Below are positions 11,280 through 27,262 of a stretch of 64,000 nt of DNA, in pieces (position 1 is the stretch's first letter; each line of letters opens with the position of its first letter). Source of the DNA: Synergistaceae bacterium (GTDB taxonomy: Bacteria; Synergistota; Synergistia; Synergistales; Aminobacteriaceae); NCBI GenBank assembly GCA_017448795.1, contig JAFSKV010000063.1, positions 1 to 64,000 on the forward strand. The letters are read 5' to 3'. A model generated the notes under the pieces. It searched no databases, was not told the DNA's origin, and saw only the letters and a program-made list of their open reading frames with translations. Both the position numbers and the translations under genes were made by a program.

Positions 11280-12572
11280 CTAATTCTGGCTTTGTCCGAC
11301 GGGCGGAATTGGCCTGTCCGGGATCGTCCCGGGGTCAGGCGTGTATTGTCCCACAGGAGGAAGATATTCTGTCTGCCTTCTTGGTTCTGTCGGAGGCTCT
11401 GGCTGTGTGCGTGTAACAGGCGGAGTCTGACGCGATGGTGCCGGAGTCTGCGGCCTCACGTCTTGGGATGCAGGCCTTGAAGGAGTCTTAGTCTGGGACT
11501 TCCTAGTCTGCTTCGCCGGGGCTTTTGCCGGGGATTTTGCGGCCGGGGCTGCGGATTTCTTCTGCCTGACCACCCTGCTTGCCGGGACTGTAGCGGATTT
11601 CTTCTGCGCCGCGGGCTTTGTCGGGATCTTCACGGACTGCCTCTGCGGCTCTGCTTGGGGCTTTGGAGGGGGGGTGACTTTCTGACCGGGAGCAGGAGGG
11701 GTGTACAGGGGCTTGTCTGCGCGGAGTATCTTGTCCCTGTCAGCAATAATCTGGTCACTCTCCGGGCTGTATGCGACGGTCTGGGGCAAAGTGTCAGGGC
11801 TTACGTCTGCTATTACACCCGCGGCATCCGGCGGCATGTAAACTGGGGACTGCCCGTCCATACGCGGAAGCTCCTCCGGGCTTGGCGGAACGTAGACAGA
11901 AGGACTCCATGAGTCTCCATCAAGCGGAGATGCCCCAGGCTCAGGAGGAGTGTACACGGGGACTTGGGGAACTTCAGGGTCATCAGGAGCATTGGGGAAA
12001 CGTGAGACATCAAGCGGCACTGAAGCTGTCTCGACAGGATAGACTCTAGCCGGACGCTTGGGGTCCCACAGGGGGGTCTTCTCCCTGTCCTCCGGGTAAA
12101 ACACGACGCGTGAAAGAGGCTCAAAAGCCGGGTCAATCGTTACGGCCTTGCTGTAGAAATACTGGGCCTGATAGAAGCCTCCTGTCTTCTCGTGGTAGAC
12201 ACCGTACCAGTACCACGCGTTGGGGTTGTTGCGCTCCTCCTGGATGGCCTTGAGCAAATACGGCCTAGCCTGCTCGTACCTTTCCTGTTGCATGAGCTCG
12301 ATCCCTTTCTGGAGTGAAGTCTTCCGGGCTGGAGCCGCTTTCTTTGGGGCGGCTTTCTTGGGAGCAGGCTTCTTTGCGGGAGTCTTCTTCTTTGGGGCGG
12401 CTTTCTTTGGAGCGGGCGCGGGCTTGGGCGCGGGAGCCGGGGGCGGAGTTTCTGCCTGTGGGGGGACGGGGTAAGGTGAATATATCGCGCTGTCATCGTC
12501 CGGGACTGCGGCGGCGTGTGAAATTCCCGCAAGCATGGCCGCTGTTATCACCGTCAGCATTATTCTTTTCAT
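11280..12572 (-). CDS. Secreted Pro/Ala/Lys-rich protein with TPR segment
   Basis: A 430-residue protein with a signal peptide (cleavage near SHA-AA). A low-complexity Pro-Ala-Lys stretch (about 40-85) follows, resembling TonB-like or histone-like linkers. A TPR-like pair comes next (about 90-150: GIELMQQERYEQARPYLLKA, then a second helix pair). The long C-terminus is rich in Pro and carries recurring VYxPP(D/S/E) motifs at spacings of 25-40 residues. Such composition suggests an extended, wall- or envelope-spanning scaffold. The ATG at 12572 is preferred over GTG codons further upstream. Confidence 0.75.
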   Translation of the reverse strand: MKRIMLTVITAAMLAGISHAAAVPDDDSAIYSPYPVPPQAETPPPAPAPKPAPAPKKAAPKKKTPAKKPAPKKAAPKKAAPARKTSLQKGIELMQQERYEQARPYLLKAIQEERNNPNAWYWYGVYHEKTGGFYQAQYFYSKAVTIDPAFEPLSRVVFYPEDREKTPLWDPKRPARVYPVETASVPLDVSRFPNAPDDPEVPQVPVYTPPEPGASPLDGDSWSPSVYVPPSPEELPRMDGQSPVYMPPDAAGVIADVSPDTLPQTVAYSPESDQIIADRDKILRADKPLYTPPAPGQKVTPPPKPQAEPQRQSVKIPTKPAAQKKSATVPASRVVRQKKSAAPAAKSPAKAPAKQTRKSQTKTPSRPASQDVRPQTPAPSRQTPPVTRTQPEPPTEPRRQTEYLPPVGQYTPDPGTIPDRPIPPVGQSQN

Positions 12573-25326: not shown

Positions 25327-26349
25327 CTAATTCAGCTCACGTTCTATTGCCTCGCTGGCTCTCTTCAGGTCAAGGCGTGAACGTACAGCCCTCATCCCCT
25401 CAAGTGCAAGACGTTCTGATTCTTCCTCGTGCGTGCAGGCATGAAGGAGATTCTCGGCGAGCCCTCCCACATCGTCAACATCACTCCCAAGCGCGAACCT
25501 GTAGCCCTCTGTAAGGTATTCACTTGCTGGTATTTTGCTCACGACGGCAAAGCATCCCTGCATCATGGCCTCAGCCAAAGCAATCCCAAAAGACTCCCAC
25601 GTCGAAGGAAACGCAAAAATCTTAGCGTCCCGGTAAATCTCCAGCAGCCGCGCCCTGTCCCTGATTTCCCCTGTGAACACAACACGCCCGCTCAGTCCGG
25701 GATATTTGGCGTAAAAGTCCGAAGCTATGCTCATGTTCTCCTCGACGCGCCCGGCGAGCTTCAGCGTCCAGCCCGGAATCCTGTCCGCAATCCCCGCGAA
25801 TGCCTCAAGCAGTATCTCCGTTGCCTTCTGGCGTGTGCCGAGCCTGCCGACGGTCAGAATCGTGTTGCTGCGCTGTGAGAACGGCCGGAAGTCCTCCAGC
25901 TCATGAGGGACTGCGGGGTTGGGTATCCAGATTATTTTGCGCCCCCAGTCGCGCGTGAGGATTTCGTCGTTGCCTTCGAGTTCGGTGCTGACACAGCCGG
26001 AATGATTCATCAGCCAGTTGATGAACGGAAGCTTCCAGCGTTTCGTGGCTGACTTCCTGTAAGCTCCGTCGAATTTCACATAGACTTTCCCGGCCGGATT
26101 GAAGAGCTTGTACGTGAAAGCCCGGAAGAATGAGCCTAACACCGGGTGCATCAGGTACAGGACATCAATTCTCTTTGCGTTTCTTGTGAGCCACAGGCAG
26201 GAGGCAAGGGTGAAGTTGAGCTTTCTGCTGCGGGAAATATTTTTCTTGGGGACAAACTCAATTCTTACGCCGGGTATATACTGCAAGTTTGGGTAGCTTC
26301 CGTTTTCGCACGTGGCAATGAACGAGTCGTAACCGCAGTATTCAGACAT
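25327..26349 (-). CDS. GT4 glycosyltransferase, 5' end switched by an 8-bp repeat
   Basis: Retaining glycosyltransferase with the GT-B fold, likely cytoplasmic and acting on surface glycans. The in-frame part (340 residues) holds a C-terminal GT4 domain with ILTVGRLGTRQKATEILLEAF, VVFTGEI and a FPSTWESFGIALAEAM E-x7-E motif. The usual N-terminus is missing from this frame. It is found directly upstream in the same frame (PSFCHLANLTNEYILKEHG, 26350-26420), as far as an 8-bp tandem repeat. On the far side an ATG (26470), a Shine-Dalgarno (26487-26493) and an extended -10 are in another frame. Five or two repeat copies instead of four would give one continuous ORF to 26470. As sequenced it is OFF. 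Confidence 0.8.
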   Translation of the reverse strand: MSEYCGYDSFIATCENGSYPNLQYIPGVRIEFVPKKNISRSRKLNFTLASCLWLTRNAKRIDVLYLMHPVLGSFFRAFTYKLFNPAGKVYVKFDGAYRKSATKRWKLPFINWLMNHSGCVSTELEGNDEILTRDWGRKIIWIPNPAVPHELEDFRPFSQRSNTILTVGRLGTRQKATEILLEAFAGIADRIPGWTLKLAGRVEENMSIASDFYAKYPGLSGRVVFTGEIRDRARLLEIYRDAKIFAFPSTWESFGIALAEAMMQGCFAVVSKIPASEYLTEGYRFALGSDVDDVGGLAENLLHACTHEEESERLALEGMRAVRSRLDLKRASEAIERELN

Positions 26350-26424
26350 GCCATATGGGATGATACCGTGTTCCTTCAGGATATATTCATTGGTGAGATT
26401 TGCGAGATGGCAAAAGGATGGTCG

Positions 26425-26456
26425 TGGCTTCGTGGCTTCGTGGCTTCGTGGCTTCG
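26425..26456. repeat. 8-bp tandem repeat, four copies (TGGCTTCG)
   Basis: Four perfect copies of an octamer lie 15-46 bp into the minus-strand glycosyltransferase gene. Eight is not a multiple of three, so each copy gained or lost changes the frame. With four copies the ATG at 26470 runs into a TGA within about 25 codons. Confidence 0.9.
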
Positions 26457-26509
26457 ATTATGGCGACCATGATGGGAAATGTCAAGCTCCTTTCTGTGGA
26501 TTCCGCCAG

Positions 26510-26518
26510 ATTCTAACA
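26510..26518 (-). promoter_or_regulatory. Extended -10 of the repeat-switched glycosyltransferase
   Basis: TGTTAGAAT on the minus strand lies 40 bp upstream of the proposed ATG at 26470 and supports that distal start rather than the one at 26349. Confidence 0.5.
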
Positions 26519-26533
26519 CGCCCCCCGCCAATC

Positions 26534-26542
26534 TGGTATAAT
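26534..26542 (+). promoter_or_regulatory. Extended -10 promoter of the deoxynucleoside kinase operon
   Basis: TGGTATAAT, a perfect extended -10, lies 45 bp before the TTG start at 26588. It is divergent from the glycosyltransferase promoter. Confidence 0.6.
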
Positions 26543-26587
26543 CGCCTCAATTTCTCACATACAATCACACCAAGGAGCTGTAATCTT

Positions 26588-27262
26588 TTGGGACAGATTC
26601 AAATCATCGTCGAGGGCATGACAGCCAGCGGCAAGTCCACAATCGTCAGCCTTCTCTCCGAGCGCTTGGGCTTCGACGTGATGCCGGAAGAGTTCCGCGA
26701 CCCCTTAGACCTTCTCGGACGCTTCCACCACGACCGCAAATGGGCCTTCCCCATGCAGCTTAACTTTCTCGTTACCCGGTTCGCACAGTACCTTTGCGCG
26801 TCTGAGCAGGACAACTACATTCTCGACAGGAGCGTTTTCGGCGACAAGGTCTATGCCATGCTCTACTACAAGTCAGGCTACTTCAAGGACAGCCAGCTGG
26901 GATGTTACCTGACACTCTATGACTCGCTTCTGCGCGGCGTGAAGCCTCCTAGGCTGTTCGTGATTGTGCGTTGCAGGTTCGACGAGATCATGAGGCGCAT
27001 CCATGACAGGGGCAGGCAGGATGAGATTGACGCGGGCGAGCCTTACTGGCGGAGTCTCTATGACGCTTACATGCCGTTCCTCGATTTCCTGAAGTCAGAG
27101 CTTGGCGGGGATATTACGTTCTACGAGCTTGAGCTGTCTGACCCGGCTTTCATTCACACGCCCTCAATGGTTGACTCGTTCCTTGGGGACATACGGGGAT
27201 ATTTCCCGGAAAGGAGGATATTGCACGGCCATGAAGGTCAGCGGATTGCTCAGGCACATTGA
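26588..27262 (+). CDS. Deoxynucleoside kinase (dNK family)
   Basis: Phosphorylates deoxynucleosides for salvage into dNTPs. The 224-residue protein has the P-loop GMTASGKST (10-18), an EE pair at 34-35, the DRS motif (80-82, ILDRSVFGD) and a lid Arg segment RRIHDRGRQDE, all characteristic of the dNK/thymidine-kinase-like family. The TTG start at 26588 is preceded by AAGGAG and the open frame upstream lacks a site. It heads a long plus-strand operon and overlaps the Nif3-like gene by 32 bp. Confidence 0.9.
   Translation: MGQIQIIVEGMTASGKSTIVSLLSERLGFDVMPEEFRDPLDLLGRFHHDRKWAFPMQLNFLVTRFAQYLCASEQDNYILDRSVFGDKVYAMLYYKSGYFKDSQLGCYLTLYDSLLRGVKPPRLFVIVRCRFDEIMRRIHDRGRQDEIDAGEPYWRSLYDAYMPFLDFLKSELGGDITFYELELSDPAFIHTPSMVDSFLGDIRGYFPERRILHGHEGQRIAQAH

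Follow-up and report, generated by a model that had tools for sequence, protein, structure and literature searches.

Translational contingency loci of the SSR type, such as the LOS glycosyltransferase genes of Haemophilus influenzae and Neisseria, mainly use tetramers or homopolymers. In pil1 of Streptococcus gallolyticus, an array of the pentamer GCAGA lies in a short leader ORF, the frame of which controls the downstream gene (PMC3894217). The hmw1A and hmw2A genes of H. influenzae carry 7-bp repeats in the promoter region; their effect is gradual and two promoters have been proposed (PMC8262952). In Beggiatoaceae, TAACTGA heptamers form short arrays near start codons throughout the genome, with a single stop-containing unit placed upstream of the starts and no functional bias (PMC4679880).

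The window analysed here, 64,000 nucleotides of a contig from a Synergistaceae bacterium, contains a GT4 glycosyltransferase gene on the minus strand. As judged from its sequence, the locus is very probably a contingency (phase-variable) gene, one of a genus-wide set of translational switches located at genes for surface-glycan enzymes and for surface proteins. The gene body (25327–26421) runs from a repeat array to a TAG stop codon and was assigned with Pfam and orthologues. A Glycos_transf_1/Glyco_trans_1_4 domain scores above cut-off (PF13692, 3.3e-22, 79.7 bits, cut-off 27; PF00534, 1.7e-19, 70.5 bits, cut-off 26.4), and the best structures by profile are PimA-type. The gene is solitary, with a divergent deoxynucleoside kinase gene on one side and a convergent DUF1275 gene on the other. 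The mechanical ORF at 26348–27262 carries the kinase through the array on the opposite strand; the true kinase start is probably near 26580.

The array (26456–26422, minus strand) consists of 4.4 copies of CGAAGCCA, 35 bp with 100% match and a TRF score of 70, equalled in the window only by a degenerate 15-bp array at 12337. Its 8-bp unit is not divisible by three, contains no stop codons and begins 14 nt past the A of ATG 26470 (26468–26470), the inferred start codon. At the present copy number this ATG opens 27 codons that end in TGA, and the GT4 frame is closed to it. Recomputing the frames, we obtained 383, 375 and 391 codons, covering the whole enzyme, for changes of +1, −2 and +4 units, respectively, while the remaining changes tried give 19–36 codons; the ATG is thus in frame at 2.4, 5.4 and 8.4 copies. 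This bears out the preliminary description, which had placed four 8-bp copies just inside the gene and predicted that two or five would join the ATG to the enzyme and four would meet TGA. The N-terminal residues that it reported as missing and present in another frame were recovered as well: FCHLANLTNEYILKEHG is encoded in the GT4 frame immediately 3' of the repeats, with F, C, L, N and K invariant among orthologues.

Two promoters surround the start codon. The −10 hexamer of the upstream promoter, P1 (TAGAAT, 26510–26515, minus strand), is extended by TGT and was read directly as TGTTAGAAT. It is followed by a Shine-Dalgarno (SD) sequence, AAAGGAG (26487–26493). The second promoter, P2, matches the sigma-70 consensus at 11 of 12 positions and comprises TTGACA (26485–26480), a 17-nt spacer and CATAAT (26462–26457). 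ATG 26470 is located within the P2 spacer, and the first base of the array directly follows CATAAT. The extended −10, AAAGGAG and ATG 26470 had all been noted before and are present, but P2 and the wider family of like modules had been overlooked. The distance from GGAG to the ATG is about 16 nt, compared with the usual 5–9, so weak initiation is predicted; among sister modules, spacings of 7–11 nt are frequent, as are spacings of 15–16 nt. Because a P2 transcript would begin inside the repeats, without SD and ATG, the promoter geometry suggests that translation from 26470 requires P1.

Orthologues with 49–60% identity were found in 9 of the 43 genomes of the genus, each species being represented by one genome and the own genome included (E ≤ 1e-30), together with a fragment in G017. 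The named orthologue records are from uncultured Synergistaceae or Synergistales, with goat, reindeer and red deer as hosts. At the same position, the orthologues carry arrays of GAGCAAC (G032), CAAGCAA (G017) and GGCTCAC (G024), all in frame, of GACCAGC (G035), out of frame, and of CACGA (G036); the repeats in G034 and G026 are degenerate or two-copy. The layout is shared although the units differ, indicating that SD and P2 are retained through replacement of the unit. GT4 copies that lack an array (two in G016, one each in G031 and G024) have a normal start with no complete P2 beside it. Three paralogues with similar flanks within the single genome G024 contain 3.7, 5.7 and 5.7 copies. Two G034 contigs, C147 and C178, were considered as alleles of one locus but proved to be different loci.

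Scanning the 43 genomes for TTGACA-N17-TATAAT returned about 100 sites, about half of them directly followed by tandem repeats. Since this set was chosen by promoter, we separately sampled 0.94 Mb of the own genome and 0.40 Mb of a second species (G030) without selection, counting an array as promoter-linked when its first repeat lay no more than 3 nt from the end of a promoter matching at least 10 of 12 positions. Such promoters adjoin 10 of 30 arrays in the own genome (offset control 1/1764; Fisher 4e-18) and 6 of 10 in G030 (control 0/684; Fisher 1e-12), or 16 of 40 in the pooled sample (control 1/2448). The promoter-linked units are exclusively 5, 7 or 8 bp long, with no multiple of three among the 16, compared to 11 of the 24 other arrays (Fisher p 0.001). 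The search rule admits array starts from −3 to +3 nt relative to the end of the P2 −10 hexamer; most fall between −2 and +1. By simple extrapolation from this sample, a genome would hold roughly 25–40 modules. Such a number of switches would put this rumen genus beside Neisseria or Campylobacter, and would imply that phages or the host exert strong pressure on commensal cell surfaces.

The 35 strong TTGACA/TATAAT sites of the unselected sample divide into 11 with both SD and array, 19 with neither, 4 with an array only and 1 with an SD only. By eye, the SD-only site (L130) has GAGAAGC repeats a few bases downstream, and an SD-like word lies barely outside the search rule at two of the four array-only sites (L137, L174). 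Mutational array birth at any strong promoter was rejected as a sole cause, as arrays are missing from 19 strong promoters that lack an SD. Shared descent of the modules is an unlikely explanation for the promoter: P2 spacers and start positions vary while the hexamers are constant.

The anatomy of the module was derived from 52 non-redundant, mostly promoter-selected examples. Read from these sequences, a module is a P1 −10, an SD, TTGACA-N16–18-TATAAT with the start codon within the spacer, the array and the body. The P2 spacer is 17 nt in 45 of the 52. An SD-like 5-mer lies at most 16 nt before TTGACA in 47 modules, against 14% of shuffles, and a P1 −10 (at least 5/6 match to TATAAT, 27–54 nt before TTGACA) in 46, against 31%. 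No unit in the set is divisible by three. All but one of the 28 distinct units are free of stops in all frames, which random genomic words equalled in 6 of 20,000 trials; shuffling the letters of the units equalled it in 561 of 20,000 shuffles, a weaker contrast. The sole stop-containing unit, 13 bp long, belongs to a locus without an upstream SD (L080:1543, G031:C9), where five copies lie between an SD and a consensus promoter that itself closely follows an apparent tRNA 3' end. This array is possibly a 5' UTR tuning array.

Of the loci with the array fused directly to the body, start codons near the SD assign about 11 to ON and about 17 to OFF, and the bodies have no SD or start of their own past the array. 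Two WbaP-type paralogues of the own genome (L062:1531 and L063:1510; G000:C55 and C72) carry the 7-bp unit CGCACAT in three versus two units, a one-unit difference that leaves one in frame (ON) and one out (OFF). In leader forms (L065, L066, L064, L124, L162), the array is part of a short ORF preceding a gene with its own SD and start. One of these, L064:2147 (G000:C32), contains about 2.6 copies of CGAAGCCA after TAGACA-N17-TATAAT, with a putative secreted protein bearing an Ig-like domain on its 3' side. The module bodies encode glycosyl- and sugar transferases (GT2, GT4, GT8, GT10, GT61 and WbaP-type), methyl-, pyruvyl-, sulfo- and acyltransferases, MBOAT enzymes, and surface proteins of the lectin/papain and Listeria-Bacteroides-repeat types. 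Almost all are surface-glycan enzymes or surface proteins, the classes expected of contingency loci.

We propose that the P1 transcript bears the SD and the start codon, and that ribosomes would translate an array of 5-, 7- or 8-bp units before reaching the enzyme. Whole units lost or gained in living cells would shift the frame, so that about one in three copy numbers would yield the enzyme; at the GT4 locus, four copies would correspond to OFF and two or five to ON. In the leader forms, the frame would instead act through coupling or attenuation on a gene with its own SD. The arrays mostly comprise 3–6 units, and at such lengths slippage rates could be low. The preliminary description had called the locus a classic translational phase switch. 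The locus is best read as a translational frame switch, given the layout kept in orthologues with other units, three of them in frame, the unit lengths that are not multiples of three, and the ON/OFF pair of WbaP-like genes. "Classic" is too simple, since the start codon falls within a near-consensus P2 whose end meets the first repeat, and tens of loci are present per genome.

Alternatively, P2 could be the sole working promoter, with the array as a 5' UTR element at the mRNA 5' end whose copy number tunes expression gradually, as is reported for hmw1A of H. influenzae. The near-consensus P2 and the start of the array at its −10 end would fit, as would L080, whose stop-containing array lies between P2 and the SD with none upstream. 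We regard this as improbable: it does not account for the absence of units divisible by three, for the SD and start codon that precede nearly every array, or for direct-fusion bodies that lack both past the array, and the hmwA repeats, which act gradually from within the promoter region, are different (PMC8262952). Very improbable is a dead gene that lost its frame once without return; the GT4 frame is out at present, but the body is otherwise open for 364 codons with no further lesion, and similar modules are in frame in the own and other genomes. That the gene begins at ATG 26349, as the longest listed ORF does, with the array a neutral intergenic microsatellite, is scarcely credible given the five invariant residues upstream of that Met, the orthologues that run unbroken through their arrays into the same residues, and the coincidence of arrays with SD and P2.

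The conserved P2 is unexplained by a purely translational mechanism. P2 may raise the mutability of the array, add transcription of downstream genes, or take part in the OFF state. A more specific and rather doubtful proposal is that P2 is a dedicated mutator promoter, at which melting and scrunching of the first repeats by RNA polymerase would make short arrays slip often; transcription, besides replication, would then drive switching. Orthologues that retain P2 under changed repeat units look as if arrays arose anew repeatedly at this site. With each array coupled to a consensus promoter in a fixed way, transcription-driven repeat instability is open to direct test.

The module resembles SSR contingency loci in having a non-3n unit just past the start codon of surface-glycan enzymes, where the frame would set ON and OFF. 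It differs in its 5-, 7- and 8-bp units, its short arrays, the change of unit among loci and orthologues, and the consensus promoter overlapping the start codon. The leader-type modules are similar to the pil1 leader switch; that leader ends near a terminator, and the parts of the report drawn on here describe no second promoter adjoining the array (PMC3894217). Repeats beside a promoter and a pair of promoters are shared with hmw1A/hmw2A; here, the repeats would be read as codons, and instead of an untranslated leader acting independently of frame we find an SD and start codon upstream and unit lengths that avoid multiples of three (PMC8262952). Short heptamer arrays close to start codons across the genome are shared with Beggiatoaceae, but here the units are many, stop-free, downstream of start codons and on surface genes (PMC4679880). 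The module appears to be a variant of SSR contingency loci in which the array is joined to a second strong promoter.

A literature search found no report of phase variation in Synergistota. Across 188 Synergistota genomes, the SD-spaced module pattern outside the genus returned only tRNA or ordinary promoters, except for one possible two-copy case in G056. In 0.29 Mb of four other genera there were no P2-linked arrays, and the two arrays present, both of 6-bp units, lacked P2. Within the phylum, the module family is apparently confined to one Synergistaceae genus, with one possible outlier.

Heptamers of another kind (TAGTGAT, CTAGTGG, CCACTAC) occur at L105:7982, L131:13201, L134:1417, L160:12162 and L116:1973; they contain stops, lack the promoter and probably constitute a separate intergenic repeat family. 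Many arrays are located exactly at contig ends (L111:1–28, L137:1–23, L141:1–33, both ends of L157 and the end of L149), so that assemblies break there, likely because of mixed copy numbers or arrays common to several loci.
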